A stretch of 38,935 bases of DNA, taken from the IMG/VR virus record IMGVR_UViG_3300025641_000021, positions 1-38,935 of that record. The stretch is one strand, 5' to 3'. The stretch's first letter is position 1, and the number at the start of each line of letters is the position of its first letter. Shown one piece after another: positions 4,261 to 31,853 of the stretch. A program made the position numbers and the translations under genes. The notes under the pieces are model-generated. The model made no database searches. It was not told the DNA's origin and saw nothing but the letters and a program-made list of their open reading frames with translations. Source of the stretch: a virus.

Positions 4261-4298
4261 ATGTCAATTATTTGTGGTATATTAGCAGTATAATTAAA
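4254..4298 (+). promoter_or_regulatory. Repeated promoter-like module, copy 1
   Basis: T-run, then ATGTCAATTATTTGTGG, then TATATTAGCAG, then TATAAT (4289-4294) and TTAAAA. It is nearly identical to copies at 8994, 10235 and 12597. TATAAT lies 15 nt before the ATG of the next gene, as expected for a -10 box with a short leader. There is no -35 at 17 bp; instead TTTGTGG sits 11 bp upstream of TATAAT, the layout of T4 middle (MotA-dependent) promoters. Confidence 0.7.
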
Positions 4299-4874: not shown

Positions 4875-4901
4875 AAACCAGCAGTGATGCTGGTTTTTTT
4901 T
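4875..4901 (+). terminator. Rho-independent terminator
   Basis: An eight-base perfect stem (4875-4882 with 4889-4896), six-base loop and T-run to 4901. It is followed at once by GATATATA (4902-4909) and the next ATG at 4914. Before it, 4841-4861 holds only a six-codon frame (MSVLSN), which I do not call. Confidence 0.9.
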
Positions 4902-4913
4902 GATATATACATT

Positions 4914-5171
4914 ATGAAGCATATAAAATTATACGAAGAATTTAGGGCAGATCTCAAGGACGAGAACTCATTATTACAGGATATTAGACATTTTAATGGA
5001 TCTATCCAATCACTTGACGATTGGTTACGATCTAAAATAGGTGAAACAAATCCATATAAAGACACTATAATGGTAAATGGCCCACATAAGGGCGATAAAG
5101 ATAATTCTCTGCCTTATCAAGATTTTCAAAACGGTAAGTCAGACCTTGTAAAAAACAGACATGGAAGATAA
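4914..5171 (+). CDS. Small protein with capsid-targeting-like N-terminus, 85 aa
   Basis: The ATG at 4914 was chosen over one at 4884 because the earlier start lies inside the terminator stem and T-run. The 85-residue product begins MKHIKLYEEFRADLKDE, the same tag as five other proteins in the window but without the clean IxE cleavage site; a cut after a later Glu is possible. The remainder is polar and charged and ends KNRHGR, with no recognised domain. If the tag is a capsid-targeting sequence, the mature part would be a small polar internal head protein. It overlaps the next gene by 11 nt. Confidence 0.65.
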   Translation: MKHIKLYEEFRADLKDENSLLQDIRHFNGSIQSLDDWLRSKIGETNPYKDTIMVNGPHKGDKDNSLPYQDFQNGKSDLVKNRHGR

Positions 5172-5382
5172 AACAGCAAAAGAGCTAATAGCTCAATTAA
5201 AAAGAATAGCCGACGCATTAGAAAAATCTAACAAGGCTACAGAAGCCTCTGAAAAGAGAAGAATTGTTATAGAGAAGCTGCAAGAAAAAAATCTAAAAGC
5301 AGATCTAAGGGAGAAGTTAAACGTAGATCCTGAAAAAGTTATACGCACTGCACCTAGACTAGAATCAGATGGATCCGTATAA
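5161..5382 (+). CDS. Small coiled-coil protein, 73 aa
   Basis: A 73-residue protein whose residues 5-55 form an almost uninterrupted charged helix with heptad-like Leu/Ile spacing (LIAQLKRIADALE..., then VIEKLQEKNLKADL). Function unknown; likely an oligomeric adaptor. It overlaps the upstream 85-aa gene by 11 nt and the downstream DnaJ gene by 14 nt, so translation of the three is probably coupled. Confidence 0.65.
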   Translation: MEDKTAKELIAQLKRIADALEKSNKATEASEKRRIVIEKLQEKNLKADLREKLNVDPEKVIRTAPRLESDGSV

Positions 5383-6178
5383 CGTATTAGGAGTTGACAA
5401 AACATCTTCACATGATGATATAAAAAAAGCTTATCGTAGACTAGCTAAAGAACATCATCCTGATAAAAACGGAGGGGATGATAGTCAATTTAAAGAAATA
5501 GCAGAGGCATATGAAAAGATAGGAGATGAATCTTCTAGACAACAATGGGATGCTACATCTAATTTCCAAAATTTTTCAGGATTTGATGGCCGAGTTAATA
5601 TGTCTGATTTATTTGATCAGGTTTTTGGCAACGCATTTAATTCATCCAGGCAATCGACCAAAGGATCTGATCTAAGATTAGATTTACATTTAAGTTTTGA
5701 TGAAGCATATCATGGAACTTCCAAGCAATTTACAGTAAATGGACAAGATCTTAGGGTTGATTTTAAACCAGGTCTAAAATCAGGTATGAAACTTAGAATA
5801 CCCGGAAAAGGTCAACCTCATCAATTTAATAGTACTTTACCAAACGGAGACTTAATAATCCACGTACACGTCATACACAATTCTAATTGGATTTTACAAG
5901 GTGATGATATATGGGTAGAACTTAACATAAATTGGTATGATATTTTCTTAGGTACTAGGGTCAGTGTCAATACGCCAAGTGGACAACTTTACATTAATAT
6001 ACCAGAAAATAGCTATCCAGGAAAGACGTTAAGAATAAAGGATAGAGGATATCCTATCTATAATACTGACAAAAAGGGTGCTCTTTTATGTAAATTAAAT
6101 CCGATTTATAATGAACTAAATCATGATCAATTGGAATATATAAAGAAAGTAAAAGATACCGATAATGGATATAAATGA
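5369..6178 (+). CDS. dnaJ: DnaJ-like co-chaperone (class B, CbpA-type)
   Basis: A 269-residue protein. Residues 1-65 are a J-domain with the invariant HPD at 30-32. A short linker (70-100) replaces the usual G/F region, and there is no CxxCxGxG zinc finger. Residues 100-260 are the two beta-sandwich substrate-binding domains (LRLDLHLSFDEAYHG... and IPGKG). This makes it class B, like CbpA. J-proteins stimulate the ATPase of a DnaK; no DnaK is in this window, so it presumably recruits the host Hsp70 or one encoded elsewhere. With the Hsp20 at 3841 it forms a partial phage chaperone set. It overlaps the next gene by 14 nt. Confidence 0.93.
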   Translation: MDPYNVLGVDKTSSHDDIKKAYRRLAKEHHPDKNGGDDSQFKEIAEAYEKIGDESSRQQWDATSNFQNFSGFDGRVNMSDLFDQVFGNAFNSSRQSTKGSDLRLDLHLSFDEAYHGTSKQFTVNGQDLRVDFKPGLKSGMKLRIPGKGQPHQFNSTLPNGDLIIHVHVIHNSNWILQGDDIWVELNINWYDIFLGTRVSVNTPSGQLYINIPENSYPGKTLRIKDRGYPIYNTDKKGALLCKLNPIYNELNHDQLEYIKKVKDTDNGYK

Positions 6179-6419
6179 TTATACCTTTGGCGATAATAAC
6201 AAGTGGTTCAAAATAATAGACGGACTAATTGTTAACAATGAAGACATGTTCTTTAACGCATTATATATGGCCATGACTAATCATCCAATGTATGTTATAT
6301 CGTCAGACATTGAAAACGAAAGAAAAGACGTTATTTTAAGTGCTATGATAAAATATTTTGAAGTTAAAGAAGAATTTGAAAAGTGCGCGAGCATATACAA
6401 TATAAAAAAACAAATATAA
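6165..6419 (+). CDS. YFE/YEKC-family small protein, paralogue 2
   Basis: An 84-residue protein whose last 32 residues (AMIKYFEVKEEFEKCASIY and following) match the C-terminal block of the proteins at 4515 and 6729. The N-terminal half differs between paralogues, suggesting a shared helical-hairpin interaction module with variable heads. Function unknown. It overlaps the DnaJ gene by 14 nt and lies 6 nt before the bS21 gene. Confidence 0.65.
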   Translation: MDINDYTFGDNNKWFKIIDGLIVNNEDMFFNALYMAMTNHPMYVISSDIENERKDVILSAMIKYFEVKEEFEKCASIYNIKKQI

Positions 6420-6425
6420 ATCCAA

Positions 6426-6614
6426 ATGTTGATAACCAAAGTAGAAAATGGTAATATAGAAAAAGCTTTAAAGCAATATAAGCGAAAAGTTATTAATACC
6501 AAGCAAATTAAAAATTTAAGAGATCAACAGGATTATACCAAACCATCTGTTAAAAAGCGCCTGAAATTCCAAAAGGCCAAATACTTAGAAAATAAGAATA
6601 ATTCTTTATTATAA
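6426..6614 (+). CDS. rpsU: Ribosomal protein bS21 homologue
   Basis: A 62-residue, very basic protein that aligns over its length with bS21: an N-terminal V-x-N-G-N-I-E-K-A-L-K-Q-Y-K-R helix, then a central LRxxQxYTKPSVKKR segment and QKAKY near the end. The YTKPS (residues 37-41) and QKAxY features are those of the Bacteroidota form rather than the E. coli form. Y53 aligns with the tyrosine that, from published F. johnsoniae ribosome work as I recall it, helps occlude the anti-Shine-Dalgarno of 16S rRNA. Expected role: incorporation into host 30S subunits and altered mRNA selection. Its leader has no Shine-Dalgarno sequence, unlike what is described for the autoregulated host gene. Confidence 0.88.
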   Translation: MLITKVENGNIEKALKQYKRKVINTKQIKNLRDQQDYTKPSVKKRLKFQKAKYLENKNNSLL

Positions 6615-6688
6615 TATTAATAAATTATCCTAATATTTTCACAGTAAAATTCAATGTTAGTAAAATCTTTATACTAATATATACAATG

Positions 6689-6704
6689 TGATACTAAGGT
6701 ATCA
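6689..6704 (+). other. Small hairpin in a 114-nt gene-free gap
   Basis: The gap 6615-6728 holds no gene. The hairpin TGATAC-TAAG-GTATCA lies 25 nt before the next ATG, and an AATATATA stretch is just upstream (6676-6683). There is no T-run, so it is not a standard terminator; it may be part of a leader or a protein-binding site. Confidence 0.35.
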
Positions 6705-6728
6705 TTATAAAAATATCTAAAGACACAG

Positions 6729-6989
6729 ATGGCAGGCTTTATTTCCGGTTCAGATAAAGATAGTTTAATGAGGGCTAGTTATTATCAAATAACGCGCAAC
6801 TTTACTAAAACAGTAAATCGATTCATCGCGTTCAAAGATACTGATCGTATAGTTGAAATTCCACATGGTATTAAACAAAGAAGTAAATTCATAGATTTAA
6901 TGATTAAATATTTCGAATCTTTGGAAGAATACGAGAAGTGTACAAAATTGATGAAGTTAAAAGAACTTGTCATCATGGCAGGGGATTAA
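6729..6989 (+). CDS. YFE/YEKC-family small protein, paralogue 3
   Basis: An 86-residue basic protein. Residues about 54-84 (DLMIKYFESLEEYEKCTKLM) match the C-terminal module of the proteins at 4515 and 6165. The N-terminal half is basic (RNFTKTVNRF, IKQRSKF) where paralogue 1 is acidic. Function unknown. It starts a short unit with PhoH, whose ATG follows the stop by 19 nt. Confidence 0.65.
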   Translation: MAGFISGSDKDSLMRASYYQITRNFTKTVNRFIAFKDTDRIVEIPHGIKQRSKFIDLMIKYFESLEEYEKCTKLMKLKELVIMAGD

Positions 6990-7008: not shown

Positions 7009-7716
7009 ATGAGCGATAAACGTGAAAGACAATCAAGACAAAGTAAAGGTGGAACAATTGAATCCGGCTTGAAAAGAGTTCAACTTAGACAATCACAACA
7101 AAAATATGTAAAACAAATAGAGGAAAACGATATAACGTTTTGTTACGGACCAGCAGGTACCTCAAAAACATTCACAGCATGTTACGTAGCACTTAAATTA
7201 TTACAAGAGAAAAAAGTCAAAGAGATTATTCTTTGCAAACCTATACAAGAAGCTGGTGAAAAATTAGGATTTTTGCCAGGTACAAAAGAAGAAAAGATTG
7301 ATCCTTACATGAATTCGTATATTTCAAATATTACGAAGATTGTTGGAGGACAACAAGCTAAATATTTATTTGATAGCAACACAATTAGATTCGAGCCATT
7401 GGCATATATGAGAGGTGATACTTTCGACGACGCATTAATGGTATTAGATGAGGCACAAAATGCAACCTTTAAACAATTAATGTTATTTGTAACTAGAATG
7501 GGTAAGTCTAGTAAAGTTGTTGTTACTGGTGATGTTAGTCAACACGATATCGCTAGACAACATGTTGGATTACCAGGATTTATAGAACTTATGAAAGGTA
7601 TTAAGGGCATTGGTGTACACGTATTCAATAACACTGATATAGTTAGGGCTAAAATCCTCCAAGAAGTTGTAGAGAAGTACGATAATTGGAAAGCTAACAA
7701 CGAGAATAAATTCTAG
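7009..7716 (+). CDS. phoH: PhoH-like P-loop ATPase
   Basis: The ATG at 7009 is preferred to an in-frame one at 6967, which overlaps the upstream gene and adds a non-conserved leader. The 235-residue product has Walker A G47-PAGTSKT-54, Walker B VLDEAQN, and the PhoH-typical RGDTFDDA and VTGD segments, so the P-loop core is complete. Family knowledge: PhoH proteins are cytosolic ATPases related to RNA helicases, often linked to phosphate starvation or RNA metabolism, and are common in marine phages; the exact role is unsettled. The basic first 30 residues (many R/K/Q) may bind RNA. RNase HII follows. Confidence 0.92.
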   Translation: MSDKRERQSRQSKGGTIESGLKRVQLRQSQQKYVKQIEENDITFCYGPAGTSKTFTACYVALKLLQEKKVKEIILCKPIQEAGEKLGFLPGTKEEKIDPYMNSYISNITKIVGGQQAKYLFDSNTIRFEPLAYMRGDTFDDALMVLDEAQNATFKQLMLFVTRMGKSSKVVVTGDVSQHDIARQHVGLPGFIELMKGIKGIGVHVFNNTDIVRAKILQEVVEKYDNWKANNENKF

Positions 7717-7726
7717 AAACAATTTG

Positions 7727-7767
7727 ACTGATCCACGTATAAGTATAAACATTATATATGGATCAGT
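7727..7767 (+). promoter_or_regulatory. Start-codon-sequestering inverted repeat with late-like box in its loop
   Basis: ACTGATCCA (7727-7735) is perfectly complementary to TGGATCAGT (7759-7767), which includes the TG of the RNase HII start codon and codons 2-3. TATAAACA (7744-7751) lies in the loop; transcription from it would begin after the 5' arm and leave the start codon free. Read-through RNA from PhoH would fold and hide it. T4 lysozyme and some other late genes use this arrangement. Confidence 0.5.
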
Positions 7768-8390
7768 ATCAAATTTTATTAAAACACAGTCACACTGGCG
7801 ATGAAGCGATCATTGAGATTGGATTAGACGAAGCAGGTCGTGGCGCATTAGCAGGTCCAGTAACTGTCGCGGCATGTATAATGCCATATGGATTTCAACA
7901 TGAACTTATTAAAGACTCTAAACTATTGAGTGAACCACTGCGAGCAGCAGCTAGACAATTGGTATTAGATAATTGCTTAGCTTATTCAGTGGTTCATATT
8001 CCTGTTGAAGAAATAGAATCCACAAACATTCTTAAAGCAACACTTAACGGCATGAGGGCGTGTTTAGAAGAAGTTAAAAAAAATCATGACTTTGATTTTA
8101 TCCTCGTAGACGGCGATCAATTCCATGGATATGACGGTATACCATTTGAAACTGTAGTTGGAGGAGATAATATGTATGTTAGTATTGCAGCCGCATCTAT
8201 TCTAGCTAAAACCGAGCGAGATCGTTTAATGAAAGACTTAAGCGTAGATTATATGTCATACGGATGGGGATCAAATAAAGGATATGGTACTAAACAACAT
8301 AGAGATGCCATCGTAAGCGAAGGATCAACACCTCATCATAGACAATCATTCATTAGTCACATGTTGACTAAAACAAACACATTATTTTGA
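7758..8390 (+). CDS. rnhB: Ribonuclease HII
   Basis: A 210-residue protein with the RNase HII signature G22-L-D-E-A-G-R-G (catalytic D24, E25), a VDGD segment (D118), and the IAAASILAKTERD helix ending at D155, so all four acidic residues are present. The C-terminal GSNKGYGTKQH and HRQSF segments are also typical. Expected role: cleavage of RNA in RNA-DNA hybrids, including primer removal and single ribonucleotides. T4 uses an unrelated RNase H (Rnh), so a type-2 enzyme in a T4-like phage is a functional substitution. The start codon is caught in the inverted repeat described at 7727. The stop overlaps the next gene. Confidence 0.95.
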   Translation: MDQYQILLKHSHTGDEAIIEIGLDEAGRGALAGPVTVAACIMPYGFQHELIKDSKLLSEPLRAAARQLVLDNCLAYSVVHIPVEEIESTNILKATLNGMRACLEEVKKNHDFDFILVDGDQFHGYDGIPFETVVGGDNMYVSIAAASILAKTERDRLMKDLSVDYMSYGWGSNKGYGTKQHRDAIVSEGSTPHHRQSFISHMLTKTNTLF

Positions 8391-8993: not shown

Positions 8994-9038
8994 TTTTTTT
9001 ATGTCAATAATTTGTGGTATATTAGTAGTATAATTAAA
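8994..9038 (+). promoter_or_regulatory. Repeated promoter-like module, copy 2
   Basis: T-run, ATGTCAATAATTTGTGG, TATATTAGTAG, TATAAT (9029-9034), TTAAA. It matches copy 3 base for base through TATAATTAAA. Unlike copies 1 and 3 there is no terminator stem before it, although CAGATTTTTTT is kept. TATAAT is 10 nt from the ATG at 9045, so the leader would be only a few bases. Confidence 0.65.
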
Positions 9039-10241: not shown

Positions 10242-10280
10242 ATGTCAATAATTTGTGGTATATTAGTAGTATAATTAAAA
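10235..10280 (+). promoter_or_regulatory. Repeated promoter-like module, copy 3
   Basis: T-run, ATGTCAATAATTTGTGG, TATATTAGTAG, TATAAT (10270-10275), TTAAAA. The ATG at 10290 is 14 nt after TATAAT. The stretch after the module (GTTAAACATATGACA) also resembles that after copy 1 (CGTTAAAGATATGACA). Confidence 0.7.
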
Positions 10281-10922: not shown

Positions 10923-11093
10923 ATGGAATTAAAGAAAAAGATTAAATCAAAAATATTAACATATCTATTTAATGATTGGGTTAAAACCGAAGAAGATATC
11001 GAAACTCTTCAATTAACTAAAATGATGATTGAGAATAGAGCTAACACTATTTGTCCACCTAAACCAACTATCGGGTTTAGATCACGCTTATGA
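10923..11093 (+). CDS. Small basic protein, 56 aa
   Basis: A short frame of 56 codons with ATG 1 nt after the preceding stop, ending in an ATGA overlap with the RNA ligase gene. Basic at both ends (MELKKKIKSK, GFRSRL) with a helical middle. The position and overlap make it a credible gene. Function unknown. Confidence 0.55.
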   Translation: MELKKKIKSKILTYLFNDWVKTEEDIETLQLTKMMIENRANTICPPKPTIGFRSRL

Positions 11094-12202
11094 AAATAAC
11101 TAAAGATATATTAGAGAGATATGTTGCGGAAGGTTGGTTGATCTCACAAAGGCACCCGACTTTACCTTTAACTATTTATAACTATTCTCAAGCAACTCAA
11201 TATGAGGCTAAATGGGATGAGGTTACTCTTTCATGTCGCGGGGTTATTACTGATGATGAAACTGGAGAAGTGATCATTAAACCATTCTCAAAGTTTTTCA
11301 ATTATGAAGAGGTGCCTAACGAAGTGCCCTGGGAATCTTCAGAATATGTGTATGTTCAAGATAAAATGGACGGATCTTTAGGAATCTTGTTTAATTACAA
11401 GAATCAGTGGATCATGTCTACTCGTGGATCATTCATGTCTGAGCAGGCGATTAGAGGACTTGAAATCTTGAAAGAGAAATATATCCTTGATACATTTGAA
11501 CCTTCGGTAGCTTACATTTGTGAGATCATTTATCCTGAAAATAGAATCGTAGTTGACTATGGATCTAAAAAGAAAATAGTATTCTTAGGAGTTGTACTTA
11601 ATCGCTCTTGGAATTGGAATGCAGGAGGAGATGATGAGTTGCATTGGACTACCGCATGTACATATTTTAAAATGAGCGGAATTAAAAAGTCTGACATCGT
11701 TAAAACTGAACAGGTATTTAATGGACTTGGACCAGATATGTACAACTTGTTAAAGTCTAAGAACACTGATAACTCCGAAGGATTTGTTTTACGATTCCAT
11801 CCTTCTAACACACGTGTGAAGATTAAGTTTGCAGACTATGTAAAATTACATCGCGTCTTGACCAATTGTTCTTCTTACGATATTTGGGAGAACTTGAAAG
11901 AGTTTGACAAGTTACCTGAAGATGTGTTGCAAGATGTACCTGACGAGTTCTATGATTGGGTTCATGGAGTTGAATGGAAACTTAGAAAGAGTTTCAATCA
12001 CATTGAACATTTGCACATGGCGCACCTTTCGTCTATAATTAGATATGGGCTTGATCGTAAAGAATTTGCGTTGAGAGTTCAAGAGCTAAATGATGTCAAT
12101 CACGGACTTATTTTTGCTATGTATAACAATAAACAAGATAAGGTAAAACAACTAATTTGGAAAATGATAAAACCAGAATACGAAAAACCATTTAAAAAAT
12201 GA
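11090..12202 (+). CDS. rnlA: RNA ligase, T4 Rnl1-like
   Basis: A 370-residue ATP-dependent ligase. Motif I is K92-x-D94-G95 (the lysine that becomes adenylated), preceded by the upstream SCRGVI element. Motif III/IIIa lies around AYICEIIYPENR (141-151), motif IV is E230-G-F-V-L and motif V is K244-I-K246, followed by the YVKLHR helix typical of Rnl1. Family knowledge: T4 Rnl1 with Pnkp repairs tRNAs cut by host anticodon nucleases; it joins 3'-OH and 5'-phosphate RNA ends. The kinase gene follows in an ATGA overlap and the 3'-phosphatase lies 740 nt further, completing an end-healing and sealing set. It was expressed probably from module copy 3. Confidence 0.92.
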   Translation: MKITKDILERYVAEGWLISQRHPTLPLTIYNYSQATQYEAKWDEVTLSCRGVITDDETGEVIIKPFSKFFNYEEVPNEVPWESSEYVYVQDKMDGSLGILFNYKNQWIMSTRGSFMSEQAIRGLEILKEKYILDTFEPSVAYICEIIYPENRIVVDYGSKKKIVFLGVVLNRSWNWNAGGDDELHWTTACTYFKMSGIKKSDIVKTEQVFNGLGPDMYNLLKSKNTDNSEGFVLRFHPSNTRVKIKFADYVKLHRVLTNCSSYDIWENLKEFDKLPEDVLQDVPDEFYDWVHGVEWKLRKSFNHIEHLHMAHLSSIIRYGLDRKEFALRVQELNDVNHGLIFAMYNNKQDKVKQLIWKMIKPEYEKPFKK

Positions 12203-12596: not shown

Positions 12597-12643
12597 TTTT
12601 TTTATGTCAATTTTTTTTGGTATATTAGTAGTATAATTAAAAA
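12597..12643 (+). promoter_or_regulatory. Repeated promoter-like module, copy 4 (divergent box)
   Basis: T-run, ATGTCAATTTTTTTTGG, TATATTAGTAG, TATAAT (12632-12637), TTAAAA. The upstream box is TTTTTTTGG rather than ATTTGTGG; the rest is unchanged. The ATG at 12653 is 15 nt downstream. No terminator stem precedes it. It splits the RNA-repair set, driving the small unknown and the 3'-phosphatase. Confidence 0.65.
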
Positions 12644-14388: not shown

Positions 14389-14595
14389 GTGAATACATTT
14401 CAATACATATCTTTTTATTTAATGATAGGCATAACCTTTAATGCGCTATATGATTTATTAATATCTTATATAAAAAATGAGGATCTTCGTCTAAATATAA
14501 AAGAGCGAATAGTTTTCACTTTAATTTGGCCAATATACTTAGCATTACTATTATTTAATTTTATTAAAAATATTATAAATGGATCAAACAACTAA
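14389..14595 (+). CDS. Small membrane protein, two TM segments
   Basis: A 68-residue frame with a GTG start; no ATG of suitable length exists. Hydrophobic segments lie at about 4-24 and 41-61, with a charged loop between (NEDLRLNIKER). It overlaps the UV endonuclease gene by 17 nt. Real gene likely but not certain; function unknown. Confidence 0.5.
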   Translation: MNTFQYISFYLMIGITFNALYDLLISYIKNEDLRLNIKERIVFTLIWPIYLALLLFNFIKNIINGSNN

Positions 14596-15511
14596 TTACG
14601 GATACTGTTGTATTAACACGACTTTACAAAAGTCTGACAAAATCACTACTAATCGTAGTATGATTAAGCGCACATTTGCAGAGAAAGGTATCGATTACGC
14701 ATCAGAGTTGGCTCTCGCTAACGTTAAGGATCTCGTTAAGATTATTAACTGGAATAATCGACAAGGTATCAAGCTCTTCAGAATCAGTTCCGATATGTTC
14801 CCTTGGATGAGTGAATATAATTTACCTGATTTGCCTGATTATGATAAAATTTCTAATATTCTTAGAGGTGCTGGTAAAATTGCAATGGATAATGGTCAAC
14901 GTCTAACATTTCATCCGGGTCCATTTGATGTTTTAGCTTCAACTACGCAGTCAGTAGTTGATAAGTGTATTAAAGATCTTAATAAACACGGGGAAATAAT
15001 GGATCTCTTGGGTTTACCACGTGATCACTCTGCTCCTATTAATATACATGTTAATACTACACAAGGTGGTAAAGAAGTTGCCATGCAACGCTTCTGTGAT
15101 AACTTCCACTTATTAGATACATCAGTTCGTACACGACTAGTTGTTGAAAACGACGATAAAGAGAAACAATATACAACAGAGGATTTATATCAAGGTGTAT
15201 ATTCTAAAGTTGGCGTACCTATTACATTCGATTATCATCACCACTGGTGTCATCCCGGAGAATTGACACAGGAAGAAGCTCTTAAATTAGCTTCGACTAC
15301 GTGGCCAAAAGGAATCAAACAACTTGTACATTATTCTTCATGTCAAATGATACATGAAGATGAAACGCAGACTAATAAAAGAGCACACGCTGATTACATT
15401 TACGAACATATAGAAACATATGGTTTGATATTAGACATTGAATTAGAGGCCAAAGCAAAAGAGTTAGCTCTTTTACAATACGTGAAACAAAATCAACTAC
15501 AATTAGTATAA
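14579..15511 (+). CDS. uvsE: UV damage endonuclease (UVDE)
   Basis: A 310-residue TIM-barrel enzyme with the UVDE motifs in order: GYCC near the start (residues 8-11), FRISSDMFPW, a LTFHPG metal ligand, IHVN, VVENDDK, FDYHHHWCHPGE and HYSS, then AHADYI. These supply the His/Glu/Asp set for the metal cluster. Expected role: a nick 5' to UV photoproducts in DNA, starting alternative excision repair. T4 uses DenV for this; UVDE is an unrelated substitute. It is the last large gene before the terminator at 16008. The ATG is inside the upstream membrane-protein frame. Confidence 0.92.
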   Translation: MDQTTNYGYCCINTTLQKSDKITTNRSMIKRTFAEKGIDYASELALANVKDLVKIINWNNRQGIKLFRISSDMFPWMSEYNLPDLPDYDKISNILRGAGKIAMDNGQRLTFHPGPFDVLASTTQSVVDKCIKDLNKHGEIMDLLGLPRDHSAPINIHVNTTQGGKEVAMQRFCDNFHLLDTSVRTRLVVENDDKEKQYTTEDLYQGVYSKVGVPITFDYHHHWCHPGELTQEEALKLASTTWPKGIKQLVHYSSCQMIHEDETQTNKRAHADYIYEHIETYGLILDIELEAKAKELALLQYVKQNQLQLV

Positions 15512-18687: not shown

Positions 18688-20232
18688 ATGAAGAATTTAA
18701 GCAATATTAAAAATAATGTTATTAATGCTAGATTCATTCAGTCAAAAAGAAGGGCTGCAGATTCAGAGTCTACTGAACGTGCTGACGATTTAATACGTAA
18801 CGTTTATGAGGGTTTATATGGTAAAGCAATGCGCCATGAAGCCGATGGAACTCCAAATGTATTAGATATTGAAAACACTGTTTTTGCATTACAATCTGGA
18901 AATCAAATTGATTTTGATGCAATTGAATTAGGTGGCGCTAGAAAACAAGCAAACCCACAAGCAGCATTAGCACAAGAATTAACTGGTGCAGATCCAGAAG
19001 GTGTTTCAATGTTAAAAGCACCTGCACTAAATTCAAGAGAGACAGCAGCTGAAATGCTTGAAGTTTATGAAAAAAACATCTTAAGAAATTTATCATTTGC
19101 CGAAATTAGCAGTAACATTGCAAATTCAGATTTAGATCGTGCAATTACAACACTAAACGCATTTGGTAATGATTTTACAGGTCCTAAAATTGATGGTGCT
19201 GTAACTAGAAAATCTTTATTTAGAGGTAATGCACCTGGTGAACTTGTAGGTCCTTACGTAAGCCAATTTATGTTATTAGACGTAAATTTAGGTAATCACA
19301 CAATTGTACAAAAAGGCCCAACAAAAACAGGAGTATACGGTATTACTGAAAACAATTGGTTAGAAATTCAAAAAGGTAATGTCCCTGTTGCACAAACAGT
19401 TGATGCTAACACAAAATACATTTATAACCCTGCTCAATTAGGTTCATTCGTACACGTTGACTTTGTATACCAAGCGCACTTATACACGGCATCTATTTTA
19501 GCTTCTAATGGTGCTGCGAAACAATCTGGCTTCGTATCGCAAGCTAAAGAAGGTGCTTTCGTTGATAATGGTGGTGTTGCTGAAATTGCAGCGGCAATTG
19601 GTGAAATTTCAAGGCATGCGTTGAAAGCGTCATGGGTACAAAAATGGAGAAAGAATTTAAGATTAAGACCAGAAGCAATGGCTGGTAGAATTGCCAAAAT
19701 TGAAGACGGCGTATTAGCTTCTTCATTAGTACACACTGATTTATTTACTGAAGGTGCAAATACAATTGCAGCTGTTAAAGCTCATAATTCTGCACAAGGC
19801 GGCGAAGCTAAAGCATGGTTACCAATCCAGTTTGCTGAAGGTTCTCCAACACACCCGTCTTATCCAGCAGGTCACGCTGCAATCGCAGGCGCTTGTTCAA
19901 CACTGCTTAAAATCTACTTTGCAGACGGTGCATGGTCAGATTTAGGTCTTTCAGTTGTTGAATCATTAAATGGTGATTCTTTATCTGCATATTCTAATTC
20001 AGATAACGATGAGTCAGAAATGACTATCCATGGTGAACTTAATAAACTTGCTTCTAACATGTCAATTGGTAGAAATATGGCAGGTGTTCACTACAGATCA
20101 GATGGTGACCAAGGTATGATTTTAGGTGAGAAGGTAGCGATTCAATACTTCAAAGATATGAAAGAAACTTATAACGTTTCTATTGGTGAAATATCTTTTG
20201 TAGGTTTTGACGGCTCGACAATCACTATTTAA
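18688..20232 (+). CDS. Vanadium-dependent haloperoxidase
   Basis: 514 residues. The C-terminal half has the complete vanadate-binding pattern of bacterial V-haloperoxidases in the PAP2 superfamily: K319 and R327 in KWRKNLRLRPEA, PSYPAGHA with G395 and H396, and R462 and the vanadate-linking H468 in SIGRNMAGVHYRSDG. One position differs from the best-known enzymes: the SGH serine is Ala394 here. Expected reaction: H2O2-dependent oxidation of bromide, chloride or iodide to hypohalous species; a phosphatase activity is the alternative for this fold. There is no secretion signal. It sits behind an exact late promoter, so it is likely made with virion proteins and may be a virion component. Phage copies are not something I can recall as characterised. 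Confidence 0.88.
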   Translation: MKNLSNIKNNVINARFIQSKRRAADSESTERADDLIRNVYEGLYGKAMRHEADGTPNVLDIENTVFALQSGNQIDFDAIELGGARKQANPQAALAQELTGADPEGVSMLKAPALNSRETAAEMLEVYEKNILRNLSFAEISSNIANSDLDRAITTLNAFGNDFTGPKIDGAVTRKSLFRGNAPGELVGPYVSQFMLLDVNLGNHTIVQKGPTKTGVYGITENNWLEIQKGNVPVAQTVDANTKYIYNPAQLGSFVHVDFVYQAHLYTASILASNGAAKQSGFVSQAKEGAFVDNGGVAEIAAAIGEISRHALKASWVQKWRKNLRLRPEAMAGRIAKIEDGVLASSLVHTDLFTEGANTIAAVKAHNSAQGGEAKAWLPIQFAEGSPTHPSYPAGHAAIAGACSTLLKIYFADGAWSDLGLSVVESLNGDSLSAYSNSDNDESEMTIHGELNKLASNMSIGRNMAGVHYRSDGDQGMILGEKVAIQYFKDMKETYNVSIGEISFVGFDGSTITI

Positions 20233-29822: not shown

Positions 29823-31853
29823 ATGGAATTATCTAACAATATATTAGCGGTAGTAGAGCCTAGTATTAGGCCTATGGAAATAAAAATCGATGCTTTAGCT
29901 GAAGAAGAGGGAGATGACGCTGAATTCAAGCAAACCACTGTTATAGCTACTCTTAAGCCAATGGTGTTAGTCAATGGGTATCAATTTTCCCCCGGAGATA
30001 TAGAATACTTTGAGCTTAATTTAACTCAAGTTTTACCTACGTGTAAGTTGACACTAAGAGATGGTGCTGGTAAATTCGGTGTTGGTAGTTATCCAAGAGA
30101 TGGTGATTATTTTACTATATTAATCAATTCAAAAAATCAAGAAACGTTTAAATCCATTCATATGGATTTTGATATAAGTTCATCTTCAGCTCCTAAGGAA
30201 GGTAATATAGAACCTGCTACATTCAGTATGAGCGGATTCTGTAAAGTACCTAGGATATATGCAGAAGATTGTGTTAGTCTTGAATCTGGAGATTCTTTAG
30301 AACATTTGGAAGTAATAGCTAGAGACCTTGGCCTTGGATTAGCTACCAATATAGATACAGCGGATGATAAACAAGCCAGAATTATGGCTTTTACTCCATA
30401 TTTAGATTTTATAAAATCAATAGTAAAAGAAAGTTATATCGGTGAAGAATCATTCCAAAAATTTTGGATAGATTCATATTACTACGTGAATTATGTAGAT
30501 GTTAATGCATTGTTTAATTCTCCTAATCCACCCATTGAAGAGTTTGCTGAATCGCTTGCATCTGCTGCCGAGTCAATGACACCTGATACCGAAACTGCTA
30601 AAAATGCAGAAGAAGATGGTACGGGCAATGATATAGAGGTACCATTGATGTTGACAAATCATATAATGTTCATGGGTAATAATGCTTTTATTGAATCTCA
30701 CAGAATTATAAATAATTCAAATACTATTAGTACTACCGCTGGATATGCTAGAGAAATTACAATATATGACGATAATGGTGAAGATAAGAAACAAGAGTTT
30801 AGAATTGAACCTTTAGGTGGAAATGATCTAAAGGAATTAGAAGAACCACTGAGAGGTAATAGGAATGATGATAGACATGTTTCTCAAATAAAATATAAGT
30901 ATATCGGTAGACAAAACGCGGGTGAAGATGGTTTAGGTAATGTCCACCCTAATGCCGCATTTGCTCAATTACATAATAAACAAAATGAGATGGAAACTCA
31001 AAAAATGAAATTAGAAGTTACTTTAAATTCATTTAATCCATCTTTATATAAGTATCAAAAAATACCTGTTTTAATGTATTTGATGGATTCACAGGCAATA
31101 GAGCAAAACGAAAGAATTAAAGGAGATAAAAAGGAATTAGGCATGGATAAAGACGAGCCTTTTAGCCTAGGTGAAGATACTGAAAGCATTACCGATGAAG
31201 GTAAAAGAAGTCCTTCGCAGGCACTAGATACTTTTTTATCGGGTTATTATTTAATAGAAGATATTGTATATAGAACTGAAGACGGTGAAACTAAACAAAC
31301 TGTAACCCTGTTGAGAAGAGAGTGGCCTACTAGAACTGAGAATTTAATTAACCCACCTGGACTTGAAGGTGCCAGTGATGAAGAAAAAGCAGATAATGTT
31401 GCTAAAAACAGCCCAGCACCAGAGCCAGCACCGGAACCAACACCAGAGCCAACGCCGGAAGCAACACCAGAGCCAACACCAGAGCCAACACCAGAACCAG
31501 AAGAATTAGAAATTACTTTAAAAATAAACGGAGATGGTTCAACGTTTTTACAAGACGATAGTAATGTTATTGCTCCTTCTCAAAATAAATATTTGAGTAT
31601 AACTGGTACTTGGTCTTCAAATAGAGATTTTGAAGGATTTACAGCAGTAGAAATAGAATATGAAGGGATGGTTGAAGGTGATGGCGCTGAATGGAGTTAT
31701 CCTAAAATAACAGCTAAAAATGATGGTACTTGGATTTTTGAATCTCCACCATATACATACGATGAAGACAACTATAAAATTGAAGTTAGATTCCAAGCAG
31801 AAGACAAATGGTTTACAGCTAATGCTAGAATGACAATAGGCTTCGTAGATTAA
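29823..31853 (+). CDS. Baseplate hub protein, gp27/gpD-like, with PEPTPE linker and C-terminal beta domain
   Basis: 676 residues. The N-terminal 500 residues have the layout of a gp27/late-control-D hub: a tube-like domain (YQFSPGDIEYFELNLTQVLPTCKLTLRDG), a segment YAEDCVSLESGDSLEHLEVIARDLGLGL and a second barrel ending at YLIEDIVYRTEDGETKQTVTLLRRE. Residues about 530-562 are a Pro-Glu-Thr repeat. Residues about 565-676 form a beta-sandwich domain (ITLKINGDGSTFL, ..YKIEVRFQAEDKWFTANARM). The hub trimer would sit under the tube and hold the spike at 33294. The added linker and C-terminal domain are not a T4 feature and could bind a surface. Confidence 0.72.
   Translation: MELSNNILAVVEPSIRPMEIKIDALAEEEGDDAEFKQTTVIATLKPMVLVNGYQFSPGDIEYFELNLTQVLPTCKLTLRDGAGKFGVGSYPRDGDYFTILINSKNQETFKSIHMDFDISSSSAPKEGNIEPATFSMSGFCKVPRIYAEDCVSLESGDSLEHLEVIARDLGLGLATNIDTADDKQARIMAFTPYLDFIKSIVKESYIGEESFQKFWIDSYYYVNYVDVNALFNSPNPPIEEFAESLASAAESMTPDTETAKNAEEDGTGNDIEVPLMLTNHIMFMGNNAFIESHRIINNSNTISTTAGYAREITIYDDNGEDKKQEFRIEPLGGNDLKELEEPLRGNRNDDRHVSQIKYKYIGRQNAGEDGLGNVHPNAAFAQLHNKQNEMETQKMKLEVTLNSFNPSLYKYQKIPVLMYLMDSQAIEQNERIKGDKKELGMDKDEPFSLGEDTESITDEGKRSPSQALDTFLSGYYLIEDIVYRTEDGETKQTVTLLRREWPTRTENLINPPGLEGASDEEKADNVAKNSPAPEPAPEPTPEPTPEATPEPTPEPTPEPEELEITLKINGDGSTFLQDDSNVIAPSQNKYLSITGTWSSNRDFEGFTAVEIEYEGMVEGDGAEWSYPKITAKNDGTWIFESPPYTYDEDNYKIEVRFQAEDKWFTANARMTIGFVD
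31413..31502 (+). repeat. Pro-Glu-Thr/Ala repeat in the hub gene
   Basis: About 30 codons alternating CCA/CCG with GAG/GAA and ACA/GCA (PEPTPE units). It encodes a stiff extended linker; nucleotide repeats of 6-24 nt make length variation likely between relatives. Confidence 0.85.

Follow-up and report, generated by a model that had tools for sequence, protein, structure and literature searches.

Protein bS21 is reportedly the ribosomal protein that phages carry most often. A phage-encoded bS21 of the Bacteroidota kind, bearing Tyr54, has been published (Chen 2022, PMC9723584) and was discussed by McNutt 2023 (PMC9976891), and the transcripts of phage bS21 are abundant late in infection (PMC9723584). 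The bS21 gene of F. johnsoniae, rpsU, has an extended Shine-Dalgarno (SD) sequence; ribosomes without bS21 recognise it best, which results in feedback of bS21 on its own synthesis (McNutt 2023, PMC9976891). Ribosomes of this bacterium that are depleted of bS21, or that carry the Y54A mutation, prefer the SD-bearing rpsU mRNA, and ribosomes without bS21 or its C-terminal part show poorer initiation on SD-less mRNA (PMC9976891). According to work cited in PMC9976891, the bS21 of Pelagibacter phage HTVC008M enters E. coli ribosomes.

The DNA analysed here, referred to as the window, is a stretch of 38,935 nucleotides from a virus record. It encodes a baseplate OB-domain protein and gives weak matches to tail-sheath and wedge proteins. 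The only cultured relatives found for its 676-aa protein (29823-31853) are Flavobacterium phage MaF61 and the Chryseobacterium phages MA9V-1 and MA9V-2, which indicates a Bacteroidota host, probably one of the Flavobacteriales. The product of the rpsU gene at 6426-6614 is most likely a functional bS21 from a Bacteroidota myovirus. The phage copy is without the extended SD that precedes many host rpsU genes, a difference that the first-pass annotation of this DNA missed.

Other genes of the window include a T4-type RNA ligase (11090-12202) and a UvdE-like UV endonuclease (14579-15511). An ATP-grasp protein (1535-2488) was considered as a bS6-modifying RimK and rejected, since its matches are to generic ATP-grasp models only, far below the RimK cut-off. 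Its PHROG name is S6 glutaminyl transferase; the other libraries call it generic ATP-grasp. An Rfam search of the window gave no match and a tRNA search of the window found none.

The bS21 protein and its relatives

The translation of 6426-6614 (+) is MLITKVENGNIEKALKQYKRKVINTKQIKNLRDQQDYTKPSVKKRLKFQKAKYLENKNNSLL, 62 aa. It scores 47.3 bits with the PF01165 (Ribosomal_S21) model, whose cut-off is 27, and 39.4 bits with TIGR00030, the NCBIfam bS21 model, whose cut-off is 28.95. Its top PDB relative is the F. johnsoniae bS21 (7jil chain z, E 3.6e-10). These three matches confirm the identity that had been assigned from the letters alone, and the motifs quoted in its favour, YTKPSVKKR and QKAxY (here QKAKY) with Y53, are correct in the translation. 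The assignment to the Bacteroidota type agrees with the nearest PDB relative; window Y53 aligns opposite F. johnsoniae Y54, the tyrosine that stacks on the anti-SD. The alignment supports a Bacteroidota-type bS21 with a Tyr that is predicted to stack on A1534.

The ATG at 6426 is the natural start of rpsU, with an in-frame stop three codons upstream. Median dN/dS (omega) for rpsU was 0.07, and it exceeded 1 in none of the 92 usable pairs, which were taken from relatives of at least 75% identity and, sharing sequences, are non-independent. The frame is under purifying selection and is therefore no chance ORF. In an alignment with 101 distinct cellular bS21 sequences, 23 columns have a conservation of 95% or more, and the window protein keeps 17 of them, including K17, K20, R21, K22, K40, P41, S42, R46, K51, A52 and Y54. 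The changes in conserved columns are I4T, K7E, a missing E10, R14K, R18Q and Q56E, mainly at the N-terminal end. The first-pass annotation had named a lack of residues contacting 16S rRNA as evidence against its reading; judged by this conservation, no such loss is apparent.

The viral proteins share a signature. Of 74 distinct viral proteins, 72 have Gln28, which none of 63 host proteins has, and the other changes relative to the host are G27 to K or R, F23 to V and R18 to Q. Position 54 is aromatic in 60 of the 74, the window protein included. The viral set consists of 68 loci from a search with the window protein, with more added via a small alignment. In a tree that is rough, being built on few columns with a bootstrap that is not settled, the host main copies and the host paralog form one group (80/92) and the viral sequences fall outside it. 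Identity to the window protein never exceeds 60% over the matched segment in the nearest 80 genome loci. Recent acquisition from a host was rejected, as no near donor is found among these loci and the tree keeps the viral copies apart from the host clade. The SD-less paralog of the host was likewise rejected as the source of the phage gene, as the tree places it with the host main copy.

Gene block, promoter-like elements and loss of rpsU

The gene rpsU is co-directional with its neighbours in a block, lying between orf84/dnaJ and orf86/phoH (Table 1). The order orf73, dnaJ, orf84, rpsU, orf86, phoH, rnhB is conserved, and its core was found in about 34 non-redundant loci. A YFE..EEYEKC motif is C-terminal in both orf84 and orf86, and structure searches with either protein lead only to uncharacterised phage proteins, the same ones for both, at E >0.001. 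A PDB fold search with orf86 gave no significant match. A role of orf84 as a dedicated partner of bS21 was rejected, because orf84 is kept in phages without rpsU.

Table 1. Features of the window in and around the rpsU gene block
Feature	Position	Strand	Basis or context
TTAGYAGTATAATTAAA, four near-identical copies	4282-4298, 9022-9038, 10263-10279, 12625-12641		shortly before small genes
Intrinsic-terminator-like hairpin and T run, just 5' of the operon	4875..4896	+	sequence
GATATATAC, promoter-like element before the operon ending in rpsU	4902..4910	+	7-mer over-representation
First ORF of the rpsU operon (inferred start)	4914..5171	+	sequence, element position
orf73, conserved upstream neighbour, overlaps dnaJ	5161..5382	+	14 syntenic loci
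dnaJ (DnaJ domain and DnaJ_C), overlaps orf84	5369..6178	+	PF00226, PF01556; syntenic
orf84, conserved small helical protein directly 5' of rpsU	6165..6419	+	synteny
rpsU start region, G-free 34 nt	6392..6425	+	sequence; pairing +0.4 kcal/mol
rpsU, bS21, 62 aa	6426..6614	+	PF01165, TIGR00030, 7jil match, purifying selection
TAATATATA element between rpsU and orf86	6675..6683	+	sequence, relatives
Hairpin 3' of the TAATATATA element, before orf86-phoH	6688..6705	+	fold in window and relatives
orf86, strongly conserved protein	6729..6989	+	conservation; YFE..EEYEKC motif common to orf84
phoH (PhoH-like ATPase)	7009..7716	+	PF02562
rnhB (RNase HII)	7758..8390	+	PF01351

A short operon (4914-6614) most likely ends with rpsU. 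Among the 7-mers upstream of window genes, ATATATA is the most over-represented, with 12 occurrences against 1.3 expected; elements of this class precede the operon, at 4902, and several large genes, at 18688, 20276, 27064 and 31870 (form TATATAA). The ATATATA element is similar to the late promoters of phage T4 (TATAAATA). By analogy, it may serve as a late-type promoter and, if this holds for the class, expression of rpsU would be late, in line with the transcripts of Chen et al. The repeated TTAGYAGTATAATTAAA may represent a second promoter-like class. Of 62 distinct relatives, 59 have AATATATA at the site between rpsU and orf86, where 2.5 would be expected. The hairpin that follows this site in the window differs in sequence among relatives, and some hairpin tends to persist.

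A search with orf86 as the query, which does not select for bS21, found rpsU directly upstream in 61 of 77 evaluable loci and absent in 16. A sister clade lacking rpsU has no bS21 on its long contigs, to 234 kb, although these may be fragments. The tree of the neighbouring proteins requires at least three gains or losses of rpsU. Locus L346 (2855-2991) has flanks almost identical to those of locus L343, but the middle of its rpsU is lost in frame and the start and end are kept, leaving a relic of 14 residues, MLIINAKYKQPRDL, which could be an assembly artefact. Since most loci keep rpsU, whereas L346 and the sister clade are without it, the gene is old in the lineage yet dispensable in some members. 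L343 and L346 are a natural pair with and without rpsU, which indicates that loss of the gene is possible and suggests what to compare.

SD usage in the phage and the start region of rpsU

The 47 predicted starts of the window have a mean best SD pairing of -1.99 kcal/mol, weaker than the -3.38 kcal/mol of a mock window (p=0.0026). The starts are A-rich at -13, -11, -4 and -2, as expected for Bacteroidota hosts. SD pairing is also weaker than mock in Flavobacterium phage MaF61 (p=0.0039) and Chryseobacterium phage MA9V-1 (p=0.018), and a bS21 search gave no match in either phage. In the sister phages without rpsU, SD windows are not enriched over mock windows (means -1.86 for SD and -2.14 for mock); T4, used as a control, shows clear SDs (p=3e-5). 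Because phages without a detected bS21 and the rpsU-less sisters share it, the absence of SDs is imposed by the host, and SD avoidance was rejected as a sign of phage bS21 action.

The first-pass annotation had observed that almost all of the phage genes lack SDs, and the 47 starts bear this out. It had also taken the missing SDs as agreeing with a ribosome whose anti-SD is hidden. The Bacteroidota-type bS21 with its Tyr stands; the use of the missing SDs as its evidence falls, since the same is seen in MaF61, MA9V-1 and the rpsU-less sisters. That the SD-less genes result from, or testify to, the phage's own bS21 hiding the anti-SD is scarcely tenable even though the phage genes do avoid SDs, for the host ribosome suffices as the cause.

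The start region of rpsU itself differs from that of host genes. No G is present in the 34 nt before the ATG, so this stretch could not offer an SD to any C-rich anti-SD. With the 3' tail of 16S rRNA it pairs at +0.4 kcal/mol, whereas the median for the hosts is -20.9 kcal/mol. The extended SD, a feature of host autoregulation in many Flavobacteriales, is present in 64 of the 80 host loci nearest in sequence (-17 to -23 kcal/mol) and missing from the window rpsU. Among 76 distinct viral copies of rpsU, 72 are without even a moderate SD; 4 reach -7 kcal/mol and none reaches -14 kcal/mol. All of these phages' genes are without SDs, so that an SD-less rpsU is the default and need not have been selected. 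One type of viral rpsU (L191-L194) has an SD (AAAGGAGG, -12.2 kcal/mol) although the neighbouring genes have none.

The host loci other than these 64 are second, SD-less paralogs, with the exception of the single copy of one member of the Saprospiraceae (L143). In all 11 two-copy genomes that were checked, one rpsU is SD-bearing and the other SD-less. An SD-less second rpsU is found in Flavobacteriaceae, including Algibacter, Tamlana, Gaetbulibacter and others (L083, L094, L096-L100, L106, L121, L132, L133, L138, L139, L142, L144), and every checked genome with such a Flavobacteriaceae paralog also has an SD-bearing copy.

In a wider sample of Flavobacteriales, with rows picked by Pfam score, only 10 of 30 rpsU genes have the extended SD. 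A universal host feedback is therefore unsupported, and the feedback argument depends on the host. Six SD-less Flavobacteriales rpsU genes (L258, L262, L265, L266, L269, L272) have in common a TTTGCAGCCC-like stretch 15-25 nt upstream of the start, which may be a promoter that yields a very short leader.

Of 34 syntenic relatives, 31 have the orf84 stop codon within rpsU, the two genes overlapping by 7 or 10 nt, an arrangement that points to coupled translation. The window has orf84 and rpsU in the same frame, separated by TAA ATC CAA. Translation of the phage rpsU is most likely coupled to that of the preceding gene.

A group of viral bS21 proteins has Arg54 and an altered C-terminus (L159, L160, L161, L164, L168, L181-L184, L187, L196, L199, L200). 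Within the open-licence literature this clade appears new; Chen et al. reported an aromatic residue in all of theirs. Its rpsU is co-directional with protease, scaffold and capsid genes, and AAGGA or AAGGAG occurs in 8 of 11 listed start regions of the downstream scaffold gene (-5.1 to -8.2 kcal/mol). The motif is absent before the related gene in Tyr54 phages, but the Arg54 clade is a single lineage, so the comparison is confounded by kinship. An association of Tyr54 loss with general SD use was rejected, as the genes flanking rpsU in the Arg54 clade are not SD-rich (8/92 at or below -6 kcal/mol against 18 mock).

Possible roles and comparison with known systems

Replacement of the host bS21 by the phage copy, proposed previously (PMC9723584, PMC9976891) and again in the first-pass annotation, is plausible. 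Our main reading, to which we assign a probability of roughly 0.55, is that the phage makes a replacement bS21 that is not subject to the host's feedback and that would hold ribosomes in a replete, SD-blind state during phage protein synthesis. The phage rpsU, last in its operon behind the ATATATA element, would be translated without an SD, and its product would bind the 30S subunit in place of, or besides, host bS21. Tyr53 would keep the 3' tail of 16S rRNA tucked away, and the complete, SD-blind ribosomes would translate the abundant SD-less, A-rich phage mRNA. In hosts with an extended-SD rpsU, ribosomes filled with phage bS21 may shut host rpsU off, while the phage rpsU, having no SD, would escape the feedback. 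Against this reading count the dependence of the feedback on the host (10/30), the dispensability of the gene, the SD-less default and the SD of L191-L194. Bacteroidota bS21 controls the ribosome's view of SDs, a state to which host rpsU often responds. With the anti-SD clamp kept and the control signal dropped, phage copies would have a precise, testable reason for carriage, and whether viral parts are swapped into host ribosomes becomes directly testable.

A published proposal holds that ribosomes with phage bS21 favour phage mRNAs because of the phage-specific residues in helix 1 and the hinge. The viral signature at positions 18, 23, 27 and 28, which falls in the divergent region listed in PMC9723584, fits such specialised ribosomes, as does the entry of a Pelagibacter-phage bS21 into E. 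coli ribosomes, so far as the citation in PMC9976891 describes it. No start-site feature was found, however, that separates the SD-less, A-rich phage mRNAs from host mRNAs. The host SD-less paralog also has K27 and is without F23, so the signature is partly not phage-specific, and phages of the same lineage do without rpsU. Specialisation is a possible but doubtful explanation. A one-way anti-SD switch, in which the SD-less, coupled Tyr54 rpsU would lock SD-blindness and silence host rpsU while the Arg54 clade would open the anti-SD, with AAGGA(G) before its scaffold gene, is a speculative and unlikely reading.

The protein could bind RNA or another partner off the ribosome, perhaps as a decoy; bS21 has been reported in the OLE RNP of Bacillota (PMC12054373), and the protein departs from host bS21 at several conserved positions. 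Most of the conserved Bacteroidota bS21 residues, Tyr54 among them, are nevertheless kept, for which an unrelated role would give no reason, and this makes it quite improbable. A passenger gene of recent host uptake and little effect would account for the losses in L346 and the sister clade, but it would predict a near-identical cellular donor or neutral dN/dS in close relatives, and neither was seen. The nearest 80 genome loci are all at or below 60% identity (matched segment), the viral copies branch outside the host clade (80/92, rough, few columns), purifying selection is strong and most members of the lineage, a diverse one, have rpsU, so that a mere passenger is very improbable.

The replacement bS21 of the main reading can be set beside four known systems. 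Like the SD-less second rpsU of Flavobacteriaceae, whose product is the cellular protein most similar to that of the window (56-60% identity in the best segment), the phage gene has an SD-less start, K27 and no F23; unlike phage bS21, that paralog groups with the host main copy and has Val rather than Gln at residue 28. To our knowledge, bS21 of alphaproteobacteria is not known to hide the anti-SD. Pelagibacter phage HTVC008M (Mizuno et al. 2019, PMC6375957), whose bS21 is also phage-encoded, is, unlike the window phage, a phage of an alphaproteobacterium.

The phage protein resembles F. johnsoniae bS21 (7jil; PMC9976891) in length, core residues, Tyr54 and presumed anti-SD sequestration. It is without E10 and differs by R18Q, F23V, G27K, T28Q and Q56E, and F. 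johnsoniae rpsU has an extended SD for autoregulation whereas the phage rpsU has none. Within the open-licence literature, where absence is weak evidence, the gene block, the SD-less and mostly overlapping rpsU start as against the SD-bearing host gene, and the natural rpsU deletion appear to be new. A term search of Chen et al. 2022 (PMC9723584) found no analysis of the rpsU start region. The window shares with the phages of that study (PMC9723584) a Bacteroidota-type bS21 with an aromatic residue 54, a large myovirus as carrier, divergence in helix 1 and separation from bacterial bS21 in trees. In those phages the reverse strand encodes rpsU, which is surrounded by genes for terminase, portal, protease and capsid proteins and has bS21_CN (fam498) as a neighbour. 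The window rpsU instead belongs to the co-directional dnaJ-orf84-rpsU-orf86-phoH-rnhB block, in which orf84 and orf86 are, by position alone, candidate analogues of the bS21_CN neighbour.
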